From Massilia sp. Root418 (GTDB taxonomy: Bacteria > Pseudomonadota > Gammaproteobacteria > Burkholderiales > Burkholderiaceae_D): a stretch of DNA of 64,000 nt. Position 1 is the first letter of the stretch. Each line of letters opens with the position of its first letter. Under the pieces are notes generated by a model. The model had not been told where the DNA came from. It searched no databases and worked only from the letters and a program-made list of their open reading frames with translations. Of the stretch, positions 15,511 to 25,559 are shown one piece after another. The stretch is taken from NCBI RefSeq assembly GCF_001425265.1, contig NZ_LMEC01000026.1, forward strand, positions 1 to 64,000, written 5' to 3'. Position numbers and translations under genes: made by a program.

Positions 15511-15765
15511 ATGGCCACATACGCAGTCGACACTTCAGTCAACCAATGGGGAAATGGCTTGGCAGTCCGTATCAGCAAAGCGGTCCCCAAAGCTGCAGGG
15601 GTCACCGAGGGTACGCGCGTTCGCATTACCGCGCAGGAAGGCCGCATCATTGTTGAAAAAGTCGAGCCATCTCCCTCACTCGACGCCATGCTCGCGGCAT
15701 TCGACCCCGAACAGCACGGGGGCGAGGCAATGGCCTTCGCTCCTGTCGGCAACGAGGTCATTTGA
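15511..15765 (+). CDS. MazE/AbrB-type antitoxin
   Basis: An 84-residue protein with the AbrB/MazE swapped-hairpin DNA-binding domain: VNQWGNGLAVRISKAVPKAA followed by GTRVRITAQEGRIIVEKVE. The C-terminal ~30 residues (Asp/Glu-containing, disorder-prone) would wrap the toxin. Its TGA overlaps the ATG of the toxin by one base (TGATG), so translation is coupled. Such antitoxins bind the shared promoter and neutralise the MazF ribonuclease. Confidence 0.88.
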   Translation: MATYAVDTSVNQWGNGLAVRISKAVPKAAGVTEGTRVRITAQEGRIIVEKVEPSPSLDAMLAAFDPEQHGGEAMAFAPVGNEVI

Positions 15766-16139
15766 TGGCGCCTGGTGCAAAGAGCAATTGGTGCCTGGAT
15801 AGGGGTGAAATCATCTCTATCCAGCACAGCCCGCAGGCCGGCAAGGAAATCCCCGGCGTGCATCCCATGCTGGTGTCCTCGCCTCGTGCGTTCAATGAAC
15901 GTACCGGAATAGTCATCGGTTTCCCGATGACGCACGCAGAATTCAACACAGACAATCCATTTGCCGTAGCCGTACAAGGGCCGAAGCATGAGATCGGCTA
16001 TATACTGGCATTTCAACCGAAATCGTTCGACTGGCGCGAGCGCAAGGCCGGTCCGCATCCCTGGGGCGGCGGCCATGAGACCATCTTGGCGGCAGCGCTA
16101 GCCAAGCTAGACACTATCTGTGGAATAAGCCAACCTTGA
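15765..16139 (+). CDS. MazF/PemK-type ribonuclease toxin
   Basis: A 124-residue protein starting at the ATG that overlaps the antitoxin stop. It has the MazF/PemK landmarks: RGEIISIQHSPQAGKEI (the loop that carries the catalytic Arg region), VHPMLVSSPRAFNERTG, IGFPMTH (Thr of the active site) and FQPKSFDWRERKA near the end. Family members are sequence-specific mRNA interferases. The C-terminal extension after RERKA (PHPWGGGHETILAAALAKL) is normal for the PemK group. Its TGA overlaps the TTG start of the next gene (TTGA), linking all three genes. Confidence 0.87.
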   Translation: MAPGAKSNWCLDRGEIISIQHSPQAGKEIPGVHPMLVSSPRAFNERTGIVIGFPMTHAEFNTDNPFAVAVQGPKHEIGYILAFQPKSFDWRERKAGPHPWGGGHETILAAALAKLDTICGISQP

Positions 16140-17812: not shown

Positions 17813-17885
17813 TTGAATTGGCTGGCACGCATCCTGCTCAATGCCCCCTAGGCGCTGTTGCCTATGCTTGTAACCGGGGTTGGAA

Positions 17886-18077
17886 ATGAACACTGAACTT
17901 GTCCGCAAAACCGTCTCCACCGCACTGGTGGCCGCATCGATACTCGCTCTGGCGCCTGTTGCCCACGCAGCAGCCACCAGCGCCAGCAAGGACGACCGCC
18001 CGTCCTGGCTGCTGGGCGCCTTGAGCATCGTCGTGGCGATCGCCGTCCGGCGCAAGACTGTCAACACTGACGTGTAA
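17886..18077 (+). CDS. Small secreted or membrane protein, 63 aa
   Basis: ATG 17886 opens a 63-residue protein: a signal-peptide-like N-terminus (VSTALVAASILALAPVAHAA) followed by only ~12 polar residues and a second hydrophobic stretch (WLLGALSIVVAIAVRRK) that ends in basic residues. The layout resembles a C-terminal sorting anchor, but the PEP motif of PEP-CTERM proteins is missing. A strong terminator begins at the stop codon, which supports it being a real single-gene unit. No function can be assigned. Confidence 0.55.
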   Translation: MNTELVRKTVSTALVAASILALAPVAHAAATSASKDDRPSWLLGALSIVVAIAVRRKTVNTDV

Positions 18078-18246: not shown

Positions 18247-20481
18247 ATGGAAAACCACGCCGCCGAAGTCACCAGCCCACCGCAAGACGTCCCCCAATTC
18301 AAGCATTATCAGATTCTCGCGCGCCTGGGCGCCGGCGGACACGGCGAAGTGTACGAAGGCTGGGACAGCCGGCTGCGCCGCAAAGTCGCCATCAAGCGCC
18401 ACCGCGCCCTGGATCCCCTGCGTGATCCGGCCAGCCTGGTCAAAGAAGCGCGCATGACCGCGTCGCTGCACCACCCGGCGTTCGCGCAAATCTATTCCAT
18501 CGAACAGGACGACGAAGGCTGGGCCATCGTCATGGAGCTGATCGCCGGCAAGACCTGGCGCCAGCTGGCCCAGGACAAGGAAAATCCGGTCGACCTGCCC
18601 ACCCTGCTGGGCTGGATGAGCCAGCTGGCGGTCGCCATGGAAGCGGCCCACGAGTCCGGGCTGATCCACGGCGACCTGAAGCCGTCCAACCTGATGCTGG
18701 ACCCTGCCGGCAAAGTCCGCATCCTCGACCTCGGTCTGGCCTTCCACGACGACGCGCAAGCCACCACCTCGGTGATGCAGCTGGAGCAGCAAGGGACGAT
18801 TGCCTACATGGCGCCCGAAGTGCTGCTGGGCGCCCAGCCGGGGCGCCAGTCAGACATTTACGCCATGGGTGTGATCCTGTTCGAACTCGCCACCGGCGCC
18901 CGGCCCTTCGGCACGATGAGCGGGTTGGCCTTGGCTGCCGCGCAGATGCAGTCGTCCTCAGCCGACTGGACCTTTCCCGACACCTTGCCAGAAGAAGTGG
19001 TCAAATTGATCCGTGCAATGACCGCCCGTCGCCTGGATCTGCGCCTAGCTACGATGAAGATCGTCGGACAACGTGCAGCCGCCTGCTCCGAGCAACTTTC
19101 GCAGGATTCTGCAGCTACTGCCAAAGATAGCTCACCAAACCGCAGACGACGCGCGAGCTCCAAGTGGATTACAGAATTACGCAGCACCTTGCAAAGGCGG
19201 CGAGGAATCGTTATCGGCACAGCGATAGGTGTACTGCTATTGGGTGTAGGAAGCTGGCAGTTGGTCTTGAATTCCCCATTACTCGGCCCCGGCCTGCCTA
19301 CATTTTCCAAGGCGCAGGCAATCTCGCGCGCTCTAACCGCATTGCAACAATTCGAGCAGCCGGAACGACTTGAGTCGGCAGCTAGAGACTTCAATGCAAT
19401 TTTGGATGTTGACCCGGAAAATGCGGCCGCCGTGGCAGGTATGTCCCTAGTCTACAGTTTCCGATACGCGAATGACATGCAGGACGAAACTTGGCTGCAA
19501 CGTGCAACCGCAAGTGCTCAGCAGTCCATCAAACTTGATAGTCAGCTCGCTCTCAGTCACGTTGCGCAAGCTTGGGTCGTAAGCAAACAAGGAAAGCACG
19601 ATCTTGCTCTGGCGGAGTGCGAACGGGCGCTGGCACTTGAACCCGGCCACTATTTCGCCATGTTTGGCAAAACGGAAGCCTTACGGCAGTTACGACGCTA
19701 TGAAGAAGCGCGCCAAGCTGCCGAACAAGCCATGCAGCTATACCCTGGTCAGCGCAGTTTCGCCGATATGCTCGGTACTGTATTCTTTGAGCAAGGCAAT
19801 TACGACGCCGCCGAGCAAGTTTTCCGCCACAGCATACAACTACAGCCGGATTCGGCATTCGCGTATGCTAACTTAAACGCCACGCTCTTACGACTGAACC
19901 GCAGCGACGAGGCATTGCGCACCCTACAGCAGGGGCTGCAGGTCCGCCCGAATGGACTGCTATATAGCAGCTTGGGCAACGCTCTGTTCAAGCGCGGGGA
20001 CTATGTTGGTGCTGCTGATGCATTCGAGCGCGCTGTCACTCCACCTTTTGGCAATCCGAATAATTACTTGCGGTGGGCCAACCTGGGAGACACTCTGCTG
20101 TGGATTCCTGGCAAAGGGGATCAGGCACAGAACGCCTACAAAAAAGCGCTGAAGCTCCTAGAGCCACGACTGGACCGTACACCTCAAGATGCCACCCTTA
20201 TGTCCCGGATGGGCCTGTATTCAGTGCGGGCCGGTGACAGCGCTAGGGGCGAGGACTTGTCAAGGCGAGCAAGTGAGGCAGCACCAACTAGTCCCGACGT
20301 CCACTTCCGCGCCGGATTGGCATATGAATTGCTAGGCAAGAGAGATCTTGCACTAGCAGCACTTGCGCAAGCAAAACAAAATGGGTACCCGTCTAGCGCC
20401 ATCGATTCCGAGCCGGACTTGGTGGGGCTGCGCAGGGATATCCGGTACCTGTCCCAACCAACTAATGGAGTCAAGCAATGA
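18247..20481 (+). CDS. Ser/Thr protein kinase with TPR repeats
   Basis: A 744-residue protein from ATG 18247, which has GGAAAG at good spacing; an upstream ATG at 18175 would add 24 non-conserved residues. The kinase domain (residues ~18-275) has LGAGGHGEVYEGWD, VAIKRH (Lys), VKEARMTASLHHP, HGDLKPSN (Gly replaces the usual Arg of HRD), DLGLAF (DFG replaced by DLG), and MAPEVLLG. A single membrane helix (~320-340) separates it from TPR repeats (~378-685; ALALEPGHYFAMFG, AIQLQPDSAFAY-like units) on the other side. GC content drops sharply from about 18.95 kb on, inside the gene. Its stop overlaps the next gene by 4 bases. Targets are unknown; the FHA-like activator at 21539 is a candidate partner. 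Confidence 0.88.
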   Translation: MENHAAEVTSPPQDVPQFKHYQILARLGAGGHGEVYEGWDSRLRRKVAIKRHRALDPLRDPASLVKEARMTASLHHPAFAQIYSIEQDDEGWAIVMELIAGKTWRQLAQDKENPVDLPTLLGWMSQLAVAMEAAHESGLIHGDLKPSNLMLDPAGKVRILDLGLAFHDDAQATTSVMQLEQQGTIAYMAPEVLLGAQPGRQSDIYAMGVILFELATGARPFGTMSGLALAAAQMQSSSADWTFPDTLPEEVVKLIRAMTARRLDLRLATMKIVGQRAAACSEQLSQDSAATAKDSSPNRRRRASSKWITELRSTLQRRRGIVIGTAIGVLLLGVGSWQLVLNSPLLGPGLPTFSKAQAISRALTALQQFEQPERLESAARDFNAILDVDPENAAAVAGMSLVYSFRYANDMQDETWLQRATASAQQSIKLDSQLALSHVAQAWVVSKQGKHDLALAECERALALEPGHYFAMFGKTEALRQLRRYEEARQAAEQAMQLYPGQRSFADMLGTVFFEQGNYDAAEQVFRHSIQLQPDSAFAYANLNATLLRLNRSDEALRTLQQGLQVRPNGLLYSSLGNALFKRGDYVGAADAFERAVTPPFGNPNNYLRWANLGDTLLWIPGKGDQAQNAYKKALKLLEPRLDRTPQDATLMSRMGLYSVRAGDSARGEDLSRRASEAAPTSPDVHFRAGLAYELLGKRDLALAALAQAKQNGYPSSAIDSEPDLVGLRRDIRYLSQPTNGVKQ

Positions 20482-20987
20482 GAGAAGTCATCCTCACCGC
20501 CACATTCGATATCGACCAGGATAGCCAGCTACTGCGCTGGTCTTTTCTGGCAGACGGCAAACCAATTTCCGGTGACGGTGTCGAAACCGGTCTGCTAGCT
20601 TTCCAAGTCAATGACTCGCTGAATGTCAGGGTAGTTGCAAACAGTAAAAATCGCACACTCCGTCAAGTTGACATCAACAGCTGCCACATCATTACCACGC
20701 CACTCGCCTTCACTAAGCGAGAAAACCCAGATCGTGCTGGCGAGTTCCCGGACCCGTCGCCATTTGGAGACGAATACGCAGTAATCGACCTCGGTTATGG
20801 CACATGCGAAAATGACGCGGAACTGGCAAAGGGAATTTGGAACGCCAAGCTGCCACTTCAGTGTGACAACACGGGTCGTTGGGAGCTGTCCTTCATCATC
20901 ACCGTCACGATCGCCTACTCAAGCGGCCACGTAGAACGGCGCGTGTTCGAATTCGACCCTGAATGTGAAGTGGGCGCAGGCGCCTGA
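20478..20987 (+). CDS. Unknown protein overlapping the kinase gene, 169 aa
   Basis: Starts at ATGA, sharing 4 bases with the kinase stop, so the two are co-translated. No signal peptide or membrane segment. The 169 residues look all-beta (EVILTATFDIDQDSQLLRWS, ELSFIITVTIAYSSGHVE) with a few cysteines (NSCH, GTCEND, LQCDN, DPEC). I do not recognise a family. The strict coupling suggests it works with the kinase, perhaps as a substrate or partner. AT-rich like the neighbouring TPR region. After its stop there is a weak hairpin (GCATAC/GTATGC, 20989-21007). Confidence 0.65.
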   Translation: MREVILTATFDIDQDSQLLRWSFLADGKPISGDGVETGLLAFQVNDSLNVRVVANSKNRTLRQVDINSCHIITTPLAFTKRENPDRAGEFPDPSPFGDEYAVIDLGYGTCENDAELAKGIWNAKLPLQCDNTGRWELSFIITVTIAYSSGHVERRVFEFDPECEVGAGA

Positions 20988-21114: not shown

Positions 21115-21312
21115 ATGCAACACGAACAACACAAATCAATCTTCTCCAACGTTAGTAAATTTTTTTCTGACAAAACGCCCGCGCAGAAGCCGGTGACTGG
21201 AATGCGCCCACTAACTGCCGACGAATTGCGATCGGTGGCTGGCGGCCCCGAAGTCGAAGTAGACAACGGCAATGGACTCGCAACTATTGTCCAGCGAGCC
21301 GAGGTAGCATAA
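21115..21312 (+). CDS. Small peptide with double-glycine leader-like motif, copy 1 (65 aa)
   Basis: ATG 21115 with AAGGG upstream opens a 65-residue peptide. Residues ~1-45 look like a leader: a hydrophobic/aromatic start (KSIFSNVSKFFSDK), PAQKPVTGMR, then LTADELRSVAGG, matching the L-S-x-x-E-L-x-x-V-x-G-G form of bacteriocin/RiPP leaders. The tail after GG is 21 residues (PEVEVDNGNG...). It aligns with copy 2 over its whole length (F-S-x-x-x-PAQKP-x-T-x-M-R-x-L and DELR-x-VAGGPE-x-EV-x-NG). Too small and divergent to name. It lies behind the kinase and may be co-transcribed with it. Confidence 0.62.
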   Translation: MQHEQHKSIFSNVSKFFSDKTPAQKPVTGMRPLTADELRSVAGGPEVEVDNGNGLATIVQRAEVA

Positions 21313-21362
21313 CGTTTCGTTAGGCGATGATTCATACCACCACAATCGTTTCAAGGAACAAT

Positions 21363-21524
21363 ATGTCACACGTAAAACAAGAATGCAGCTTCGCCAGCGT
21401 CTGTAAAATTTTTTCGGGCGAAAAGCCAGCACAGAAACCCTTGACGGAAATGCGCCAACTGTCCGACGACGAGCTGCGCGCAGTTGCCGGCGGCCCCGAA
21501 TTTGAAGTGGGCAACGGCCAGTAG
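21363..21524 (+). CDS. Small peptide with double-glycine leader-like motif, copy 2 (53 aa)
   Basis: ATG 21363 is preceded by AAGGAA at ideal spacing. The 53-residue product repeats copy 1: FASVCKIFSGEKPAQKP, LSDDELRAVAGGPEFEV and only nine residues after GG. Two cysteines (QECS, SVCK) are unique to this copy. It ends 14 bp before the stop of the convergent sigma-54 activator. The conservation continues past the GG (PE-x-EV-x-NG), so the motif may be a recognition element rather than, or as well as, a cleavage site. Confidence 0.62.
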   Translation: MSHVKQECSFASVCKIFSGEKPAQKPLTEMRQLSDDELRAVAGGPEFEVGNGQ

Positions 21525-21538
21525 AATAGCTGGCACAC

Positions 21539-23140
21539 TCAACTAATCCCCAACGCCCCGAGGTAACGCCTTAACGCCTCGGCCGGCGTTCTGAGCTGCG
21601 CGGCGCAGCGGTCGACGGCGCCGTCGCAGGCTGCGAGCGCGGTGCGCAGTTCTTCTTCGGCGATCCGCTCGGGTCGCCGAATCTGTGGATGCTCGTCCAG
21701 CAGCTTGTACATGGTTGGCCGCGAGATGCCCAGCGCCTGCGCGGCACTCAGGATTCGCCAGCCGTTGTCGTCCATCGCAGCCAGCACTTCCTGCTGGTCC
21801 GGCATCGCGCGACGTCCGCGCTTGGCTTCCGCCGGGGCCGCTGCGCCATTCCCCGCCCTACCTGCCGCGCTTGGCGCCGCGCCGTGCGCAGCAACCGCAT
21901 CCGCGCCACCCTCCTCGCCCAGCACAGCAATTGACGACGCCAGCCTGGCCGCACTGCCCTGCGGCGTCGCTACACTGCGCGTTAGTGCGCTCAGCAGCGG
22001 CACCTCGCCCATGCGCACCGACAGCAGCGCGCGCCGCACCACTTGCGCCAGCTGGCGCACGTTGCCCGGCCAGTCGTAGCAGGCGCAGTCGCTCACCAGC
22101 GCGAACGGGAATTCTTCGGCCGTCGCCCCGCCTTCGGCCAGGAAGTGCTGGATCAGCACGCCGATGTCTTCGCGCCGCTCGCGCAGCGGGGTCATGGGAA
22201 TCACATAGCTTTCCAGGCGCCGCAGCAGCGCGTGATTGAAGGAGCCGCCGTACAGATCCTGGTCGGTCGCTGCGATCAGGCGCGCGCTGCTGCGCCGGTC
22301 GCCCTGCGCGCCCACGGGCCGGTAGTCGCCGCTCTCCAGCACGCGCAGCAGCATGGGCTGCACCACCGACGGCGTGTTGCCGATTTCGTCCAGGAACAAG
22401 GTGGCGCCGTCCGCCTCGCCGAACAGGCCGATGCGCACGCCCTGCGCGCCGGTGTAGGCGCCCTTGGCTGCGCCAAACAGTTCCACCGCCGCCAGCGATT
22501 CGTTCAAAGTGGCCATGTTCACCGCCACCAGCGGCGCGCCGGCGCGCGGCCCCATGGCGTGGATGGCGCGCGCCGCTACTTCCTTGCCGCTGCCGGTCTC
22601 GCCCAGCAGCAGCACCGGCATATTGGTCTGCGCAGCGGCGCGGATCTGCTCGCGCATCATGATGGCGGCGCTGCCCACGCCCAGCAGCCCGGCCACCGGA
22701 TTGTGGCGCGGCAGCGAGGTGGCCCAGTGCAGGCACAGCAGCACGGCGCGGCCCAGGCCCAGCACGGCGCCTTCGGCCACGCGCTCGGGCCCCAGGTGCT
22801 GTACGGTGCGCACTTCCTCGCCGTCTAGCTCGAAGATCATGCGGCTGTCCGGCGGCGTGATTTCCACGCCACCATCCGGCGTGCGGGCGATGCGCAGCGG
22901 CTGGCGCGAAATGCCGCCATAGCCCAGCGGCAGGCGATCCTTGCCGGGCCGGCTGAACATAGGCATGAAGCGGCCCAGCTCGATCACACCGTCACCGCTG
23001 CCGTCCAGGTACTGTTCGCCGATCCGCGCGGAATCGGGATGCCACAGCACCGTCACCGCCAGCACCGGGCCGCCTGTCACTTCGGCGTCCCGCAGGGGCG
23101 AGGTCAGCGTGTAATCGGAATCGTTCAAGCCTGCAACCAA
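21539..23140 (-). CDS. FHA-like sigma-54-dependent transcriptional activator
   Basis: A 533-residue bacterial enhancer-binding protein. Start is TTG 23140, chosen because AGGAG lies 6 bases upstream. Residues ~1-145 resemble an FHA phosphopeptide-binding domain ([24 protein letters not shown]). The AAA+ domain (~155-385) has Walker A GETGSGKE, the sigma-54 contact loop as GAYTGA (a known variant of GAFTGA), Walker [11 protein letters not shown] and [19 protein letters not shown]. The C-terminus has a Fis-type HTH ([21 protein letters not shown]). FHA domains read phospho-Thr, so the kinase 1 kb away is a logical partner. A sigma-54 promoter lies in the divergent intergenic region. Confidence 0.9.
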
Positions 23141-23249: not shown

Positions 23250-23265
23250 AGGCATGAGGATTGCT
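23250..23265 (+). promoter_or_regulatory. Sigma-54 (-24/-12) promoter
   Basis: AGGCATGAGGATTGCT: GG at 23251-23252 and GC at 23263-23264 with exactly 10 bases between, and TTGCT as the -12 element, differing from consensus TGGCAC-N5-TTGC[A/T] at two weak positions. Transcription would start near 23276, 28 bp before the amine oxidase ATG. Confidence 0.7.
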
Positions 23266-25037: not shown

Positions 25038-25559
25038 ATGCAAGTATCCTATCAAGTGGAGCTGGACCCGGTACAACTCGAACTGCGCGTGCAGCTGCAC
25101 ATATCCGGGCTCACGCCGCGCGAAACCACGCTGCTGGCACCGGCCCTGGCGCAGGGCGACTATGACTTCGAGCAGTTCTGCCGCGCCGTGGGCGACGTGC
25201 GCGCCTTCGATCCGGCCACGGACAAGGGCATCGAGATGCACCGCCACGGCTGGTCGTGCTACACGGTACAGCAGCGTTCGGACAAGCTGGGCGTGTCCTA
25301 CCTGCTGTCGGCGCAGATGCAGGGCGCTGGCGGTCCGGCGCGCATCGCTGCGGCTGGCTGCTATCTGCGCCTGGCGCCGCATGCGGGCCCCTGCCGCGTG
25401 CTGTACGCCATGCCGCGCGGCTGGGCCGTGCGCCATCCCGCCGGTGCGCGGGCGCTGGGGAAGAACTACTGGGAATATGCGAACTACGAACAACTGCTGG
25501 CCACGCCGGTGTCGTTCGAGGAAGAACGCCACGCGCTGCTGGCGCACGTGGCGGATTGA
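25038..25559 (+). CDS. Unknown protein, possibly a stand-alone M61_N-like beta domain
   Basis: A 173-residue soluble protein starting 9 bp behind the amine oxidase with GGAG, clearly in the same operon. The pattern SYQVELDPVQLELRVQLHIS, then ALAQGDYDFEQFCRAVGDV and GIEMHRHGWSCYTV resembles the N-terminal beta-sandwich of M61 glycyl aminopeptidases, but the peptidase domain with HExxH is absent. That likeness is judged by eye and is tentative. A role with the oxidase, for example substrate binding, is inferred from linkage only. Confidence 0.6.
   Translation: MQVSYQVELDPVQLELRVQLHISGLTPRETTLLAPALAQGDYDFEQFCRAVGDVRAFDPATDKGIEMHRHGWSCYTVQQRSDKLGVSYLLSAQMQGAGGPARIAAAGCYLRLAPHAGPCRVLYAMPRGWAVRHPAGARALGKNYWEYANYEQLLATPVSFEEERHALLAHVAD

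Follow-up and report, generated by a model that had tools for sequence, protein, structure and literature searches.

Double-glycine peptides with tails that copy the C-terminus of a kinase-linked protein suggest peptide signalling or interference in Massilia and its relatives

Two tiny genes behind a Ser/Thr kinase of Massilia sp. Root418 encode double-glycine precursors whose short tails copy the C-terminus of the protein that follows the kinase (its partner, below). Taken from sequence, these copies, which are predicted to be exported, suggest a form of peptide signalling or interference. The window we analysed is a stretch of 64,000 nucleotides (assembly GCF_001425265.1, contig NZ_LMEC01000026.1, positions 1 to 64,000 of the forward strand) from a genome of 7.27 Mb (G000). 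We favour, with a probability of roughly 0.4, a reading in which the tails, once cleaved and exported, would mimic the tail of the partner, and would bind and signal as ligands in kinase circuits of their own or of other strains. The anatomy behind it, namely leaders, arrays, exporter orthology, linkage, tail matching and sigma-54-like sites, is well supported. The features of the locus are the following.

17823..17838, + strand: sigma-54 -24/-12-like site (15/16), about 350 bp before the kinase ORF, at equal distance in loci L073 and L074
18175..20481, + strand: Ser/Thr kinase (Pkinase E 2e-42) with TPRs and one hydrophobic segment (residues 345-363)
20478..20987, + strand: protein of 169 aa (kinase partner), its start overlapping the kinase gene in ATGA, predicted to fold as a beta sandwich, C-terminus FDPECEVGAGA
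21115..21312, + strand: double-glycine precursor 1, 65 aa, leader up to VAGG, tail PEVEVDNGNGLATIVQRAEVA
21363..21524, + strand: double-glycine precursor 2, 53 aa, leader up to VAGG, tail PEFEVGNGQ
21539..23140, - strand: convergent sigma-54 activator, N-terminal part FHA-like by eye only, where Pfam gives no match
23250..23265, + strand: sigma-54 -24/-12-like site (14/16), divergent from the activator and before the amine oxidase gene, in the same place in L073 and L074
23280..25028, + strand: FAD amine oxidase, with 95% and 91% identical genes in the same place in L073 and L074

The two peptides are 57% identical to each other and, as the earlier note had described, both carry PAQKPxT, LxxDELRxVAGG and PExEVxNG in this order, directly behind the kinase and its overlapping gene. 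The tails are indeed unusually short (21 and 9 residues after Gly-Gly) and conserved. Assignment to double-glycine leaders also stands, with an invariant Leu, Glu, Val and Gly-Gly in 20 aligned peptides; such leaders end in GG, GS or GA according to the available portion of one account (PMC10986499). Pfam and NCBIfam searches gave nothing usable on the peptides. The two ORFs are no product of chance: Massilia sp. Root351 (L073) and Pseudoduganella aquatica (L074) each have one orthologue at the corresponding position, and Nei-Gojobori dN/dS among the four genes ranges from 0.14 to 0.51, below 1 in all six pairs. By this measure the window genes are under purifying selection. Peptide 1 is likely the orthologue of the single peptide in L073 and L074, with 12 extra C-terminal residues that are absent there; both orthologues end 9 residues after Gly-Gly, like peptide 2.

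A profile of the peptides matched in 23 genomes, eight of which were read (G000, G106, G187, G241, G290, G259, G288 and G072). The first five hold peptides with a Pro-Glu (PE) tail, while the matches in G259, G288 and G072 were rejected as family members, being longer double-glycine proteins without such a tail. An earlier peptide search also gave weak matches in six genomes (G012, G053, G068, G095, G270, G274).

The key to the locus is the overlapping gene, because the peptide tails copy its C-terminus; the note had mentioned this gene as an unknown one and missed its end as the model for the tails. In the window, the partner ends in PECEVGAGA, peptide 2 in PEFEVGNGQ, and the tail of peptide 1 begins PEVEVDNGN. 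The corresponding partner and peptide tails are PECEVGPGG and PECEVGSGL in Root351, and PEVDVEVGGGGG and PEVDVESGGG in Undibacterium pigrum. When tails were compared with the C-termini of all ORFs of at least 60 aa in a locus (61-328 each, the peptides' own ORFs excluded), the partner was the best match in 7/7 tests covering six genomes, the window being tested twice. Scores were 21-41 against 15-24 for the next best; five tests were clear, and the two of the window peptides were narrow (28 versus 24 and 21 versus 18). Across seven genomes of three lineages, the mean tail score was 24.1 within and 5.0 between lineages. With the window peptides, the tail of their own partner was outscored by those of 10 of 34 foreign partners. 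At identical residues, codons of peptide and own partner agreed in 168 of 334 cases in six genomes, with 150 expected, and U. pigrum lay above expectation (41 versus 27); the peptide pattern used for these counts, and for the own-tail permutation, missed one of nine and one of eight peptides in the Undibacterium genomes.

Members of the partner family follow the kinase, often with a four-base overlap, and evolve fast (17-60% identity to the window member in set A4). Their best-conserved elements are Gly-x-Trp, Pro-Phe and a C-terminal Asp-Pro-Glu-x-x-Val. Conservation of that end in A4 is partly by construction, because the set was chosen partly by it: a rule for DPE-like ends picked 34 partners in 63 loci, and two added by hand make 36. 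Among unfiltered profile matches, DPE is found in 36 of 39 distinct loci, and the remaining three (L180, L181 and L184), read on the right strand, show DPESEV, DPECEV and DPEGQV. The partner occurs once per genome in each of 18 chosen test genomes. Samples of 294 genomes from the family and 399 from the order contain it in 64 and 6 genomes, respectively (five of the 64 carry two or three), and 34 of the 40 Janthinobacterium genomes have it. All five genomes with PE-tail peptides (G000, G106, G187, G241, G290) hold it, compared with 64/294 family-wide. No Pfam or NCBIfam model matches the partner (34 and 20 members compared with Pfam), and its profiles gave nothing convincing against PDB sequences, the best being a multicopper oxidase at E 0.009.

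The earlier note had found no peptidase-ABC exporter adjacent to the peptides, which is right for the window but not for the genome, where an exporter pair lies on contig C1. There, a third and weaker peptide relative (L037 9605-9772, containing VAGGPELGHDVKP; E 1.36 with a single-sequence query, 3.5e-12 with the profile) stands in a row with a HlyD-type protein and a C39 peptidase-ABC transporter. The pair is 73% (ABC) and 56% (HlyD-type) identical to that of Undibacterium G187 (L028), where exporter, kinase, sigma-54 activator and eight peptides lie together; U. pigrum (G241; L027, L083) has nine peptides in the same setting. Compared with Undibacterium, the window kinase is 49% and the activator 55% identical. 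Cys, His and Asp of the C39 domain are invariant in 5/5 exporters compared. The exporters of Root351 and P. aquatica share 94% and 91% identity with the one in the window genome, each with one peptide in front (VAGA/PELGHD and VAGA/PEIGHD), and no kinase was found within the stretch fetched around them. The pair on contig C1 is likely the exporter of the window peptides, which it would cleave and carry out.

Exporter-linked peptides match the partner little beyond PE, both on contig C1 (PELGHDVKP against PECEVGAGA) and in G106, where four of them, such as PEVTNDPQPDPT, face the partner tail PELQVGST. These four (L068 9183-10385) have a tail type of their own, PE[VI]xNxPxP, behind GG, GG, GS and GA. 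A large protein also precedes the exporter, with no adjacent kinase, in G000 C1 (L037 6168-9473), L068 (545-3784), L153 and L154; it is 51% identical between G000 and G106 and 84% between L153 and L154. By eye it combines a winged-helix N-terminus and a GxxGSGKT motif with a hydrophobic segment and an end that resembles repeats, and it is perhaps a second sensor for the same peptides.

The linkage to Ser/Thr kinases with TPRs proposed in the note was checked and found: arrays of 7-9 peptides adjoin the orthologous kinase, together with relatives of the exporter, in two Undibacterium and four Janthinobacterium genomes. The idea of a signal or kinase-linked peptide family has therefore held as to the kinase, and the peptides would be signals under the reading that we favour. 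Four of 40 Janthinobacterium genomes carry arrays of 7 or 8 matches (E <1e-8, profile search), and three genomes gave weak partial matches. Their precursors, mostly about 28 residues long, follow MQELNxNEIExVSGG-xM-PESSVGG-xxxx, with two residues between GG and PE, and adjoin a kinase that shares 43-44% identity with the window kinase, as well as partner, HlyD-type protein and exporter. Leaders this short are plausible, since the C39 domain LahT150 still accepts as a good substrate a leader trimmed to its last 14 residues, according to the accessible part of the report (PMC6363468). Of 80 kinase loci, 17 with unrelated kinases (L136-L152) were left out of the neighbourhood counts. Among the remaining 63, the peptides lie near the kinase in 5 and are absent in 58 by the pattern used, which missed one of seven in G290, here and in the strain-variant test below; they are thus an accessory of the kinase loci.

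Taken together, the proposed mechanism would run as follows. The C39 peptidase-ABC exporter encoded elsewhere in the genome would cut after Gly-Gly and export tails beginning with Pro-Glu that mimic the C-terminus of the kinase's partner, whose own tail may be released by self-cleavage at Asp-Pro. The exported copies would serve as ligands, agonists or jamming competitors, of the partner or of the kinase TPR domain, whether in the producing cell or in a different strain, and the Janthinobacterium arrays would sample the partner tails of other strains. The kinase would signal to the neighbouring sigma-54 activator, and this would drive the divergent gene. The single hydrophobic segment of the kinase separates the kinase domain from the TPRs, which are therefore predicted to be periplasmic. 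No signal sequence or membrane segment is predicted for the partner, so that partner and exported peptides would start on opposite sides of the membrane.

This topology brings in the main rival to the ligand role, which we rank first. The precursors could instead stay inside as decoys, giving extra copies of the partner tail to a cytoplasmic target (kinase domain or activator), with a leader that only removes them by export or is vestigial. A partner without signal sequence or membrane segment would have a tail acting in the cytoplasm, and in L085, L117 and L133, all of them without such peptides, the partner tail is doubled in cis (DPExxVG ... MPExxVG), so that the number of tails in a cell can go up with no export involved; more such ends are seen in L233-L237. 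However, the arrays adjoin C39 exporters in six genomes, and the short Janthinobacterium leader is as conserved as the tail. We consider the decoy unlikely, though it is the alternative to be taken most seriously.

Where the tail sits in the partner was addressed with AlphaFold2 models, which gave a beta sandwich for the window partner (pLDDT 88) and for a 130-residue relative, L087 (pLDDT 85), with the tail as the last predicted strand in both. The window model matched PixA (Z 7.4), a Mak protein (6.8), 4q52 (6.7) and SO1698 of Shewanella oneidensis (6.3), values at which chance is possible. For L087, the five top rows in VIA were SO1698 mutants (Z 8.8-9.2), ahead of PixA (8.6), Mak (8.2 and 8.1) and cupredoxins (7.4), and SO1698 entries also led in Foldseek (E 6e-4). 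PixA and the Mak proteins (MakC, MakD) are thus near-best folds (Z 5.9-7.4 for the window partner, 8.1-8.6 for L087), with similarity in fold only: the partner does not match them in sequence, nor the PixA profile PF12306. We know of no kinase, peptide or exporter link for these proteins.

SO1698 (DUF1888) is termed a self-cleaving endopeptidase in the available part of PMC11655445. Chains of wild type, Y26F, P115A and Q118A align up to residue 116, and those of D37A, S114A, D116A and P117A up to 123-125, the pattern that cutting of the 116-117 bond would give; D37 and S114 would then be needed for cleavage. Details of this self-cleavage are reportedly given in a 2012 study in the Journal of Biological Chemistry. 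In 4/4 chains ending at 116, this residue is matched to the conserved Asp of L087 (Asp122), which would place the tail behind Asp-Pro like the SO1698 fragment. The two families may be alike in the predicted beta sandwich, in the pairing of the L087 Asp-Pro with residues 116-117 and in a similar number of residues after it. They differ in that the partner has no Pfam match (the DUF1888/SO1698 profile included, with 34 and 20 members compared), shares about 10% identity and is coupled to a kinase. Of the SO1698 cleavage residues, S114 is not conserved: at the equivalent position, two residues ahead of the Asp, the window partner has Glu, many short forms have Leu and many Janthinobacterium members have Ser. 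Judged from the fold, the partner tail may be freed by self-cleavage at the Asp-Pro bond, as in SO1698.

A tail that forms the last strand in both models, in a fold (L087) resembling SO1698, could also be exchanged structurally, the peptide tails replacing the partner's last beta strand and altering assembly with no signalling at all. We regard this as distinctly unlikely, as it leaves export and the variable ends after the strand unexplained.

On the output side of the proposed ligand circuit, 38/57 loci have a sigma-54 activator no more than 4.5 kb from the kinase. The activator is oriented towards the kinase in 35 loci, and 24 of these have a -24/-12-like site (at least 14/16) on the side of the activator that faces away from the kinase, compared with 3.5% of 285 control windows. 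Such sites upstream of the kinase are not general (4/57 loci). None was found directly before the window peptides, and a sigma-54-like site at 20318 was discounted as lying inside the kinase coding sequence. In the window as in L073 and L074, the divergent site is followed by the gene of an FAD amine oxidase, likely the sigma-54-driven output gene of the lineage. The gene in this position is of FAD/halogenase type in L099 and L107, with five more alike by eye; in L111 a radical SAM gene follows the site at a distance of 1.2 kb, L078 and L093 have small proteins without Pfam match, and in the Undibacterium array genomes a strong site precedes another small protein without Pfam match (L028 6115-6756). 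Across loci L073-L135, the gene behind the strong site varies by lineage, as though a single switch had acquired various outputs.

Three further elements of the window were observed: a small ORF (17880-18077) whose product begins like a signal peptide, located between the kinase and the sigma-54-like site before it, a stand-alone protein behind the amine oxidase with only the N-terminal domain of peptidase M61 (25038-25559, E 2e-18; also in L073 and L074), and two overlapping ORFs that resemble, by eye, a MazE/MazF toxin-antitoxin pair (15511-16139).

The flavoenzymes raise the question of RiPP precursors, whose tails would be modified cores, for example through the FAD enzyme at the sigma-54-like site, with the partner tail as a second substrate. 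The leader/core layout is in agreement with this, as is the divergent flavoenzyme of the window and its FAD/halogenase-type counterparts. Yet the enzyme differs between lineages, the site of the Undibacterium arrays precedes a small protein without Pfam match, no modifying enzyme is constant, and NCBIfam RiPP leader models scored the peptides far below cut-off; we find this explanation improbable. Ordinary small bacteriocins of the same exporter family are quite improbable too. Several of 18 other exporter loci (e.g. L155, L159-L161, L164) do have bacteriocin-like double-glycine peptides alongside, by eye, but the tails studied here are mostly 8-14 residues long with no hydrophobic stretch, occur as near-identical paralogues and match a protein of the species or of its relatives.

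That last property is most developed in Janthinobacterium, where partner tails come in 28 distinct variants in 32 genomes. We compared 28 array peptides of the four array genomes with these 32 tails. Identity to another strain's tail was found for 3/28, a match within one residue for 11/28 and within two for 21/28, the figures for the own strain's tail being 0/28, 1/28 and 2/28. A closer foreign match is partly expected, as there are 27 foreign choices against one own tail; the evidence is therefore the excess over shuffled tails, not the ratio of own to foreign. Counting any tail, 3, 12 and 21 peptides matched within zero, one and two residues, against means of 0.09, 1.8 and 11.3 in 1000 column shuffles, none of which reached the observed numbers. 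Examples are PEASIGGHTDT (array of G230, partner of G123), PESSVGGTLGVD (array of G328, partner of G285) and PESSVGGNGSL (array of G290, partners of G190 and G273). Within Janthinobacterium, own-tail matching is not significant (3-4 of 24 permutations are equally good), and no preference for the own partner is seen because the arrays hold tail variants of other strains.

In the 11 near-exact foreign pairs, 70/118 codons agree, ranging from 9/11 to 2/10, so that some foreign-like tails may stem from recombination and others be alike only as protein. Duplicates of the partner's 3' end that evolve neutrally, or a silent stock for renewing partner tails by recombination, would suit the patchy presence (5/63 kinase loci) and the foreign tails with near-identical DNA (e.g. 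9/11 codons), but they are very improbable given dN/dS below 1, conserved leaders and exporters, and pairs alike in protein and not in codons (2/10).

A bolder version of the ligand reading would be a new form of peptide communication or warfare, in which exported libraries mimic strain-variable partner tails and the same Pro-Glu peptide arises by two unrelated routes, Asp-Pro self-cleavage inside and cleavage by C39 with export. The two-route idea fits the tails of the Massilia group and of Undibacterium; in Janthinobacterium two residues precede Pro-Glu. We hold this version to be doubtful rather than improbable.

Several known systems share parts of this picture. C39-exported double-glycine peptides, such as class II microcins and Gram-positive pheromones, are alike in the LxxxExxxVxGG leader end and in a HlyD-type protein and C39-ABC exporter in the genome; here, however, the mature part is mostly 8-14 residues, copies the C-terminal end of a kinase-linked protein found in the same strain or in others, and is encoded in arrays beside a receptor-type kinase. 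In heterocyst-forming cyanobacteria, PatS and HetN likewise place one short motif in a tiny peptide and in an unrelated larger protein, with another motif, another receptor and no kinase partner tail. The C39 exporter HetC has been proposed to export PatS/HetN, as stated in the available part of the source (PMC10986499). Gram-positive pherotypes and RRNPP systems use short exported peptides that vary by strain, and TPR proteins as peptide receptors; here export is predicted, one strain holds many variants, and the TPRs are fused to a Ser/Thr kinase and predicted to be periplasmic. To our knowledge, there are few descriptions of Gram-negative peptide signalling that uses C39 exporters. Among the literature matches listed (titles and abstract openings, with subscription papers mostly outside), there was no description of this system.

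The analysis names an unannotated partner family present in 64 of the 294 genomes of the family sample. One short tail ties together a receptor-type kinase, its partner, a sigma-54 activator and peptides predicted to be exported. The shared tail differs between lineages and, in Janthinobacterium, between strains, and single strains carry libraries of tails. Candidate ligand sequences that can be tested directly are thereby at hand for a Ser/Thr kinase system of bacteria. If the reading is true, a cell exporting foreign tails could address or jam the sigma-54 switch of its relatives.
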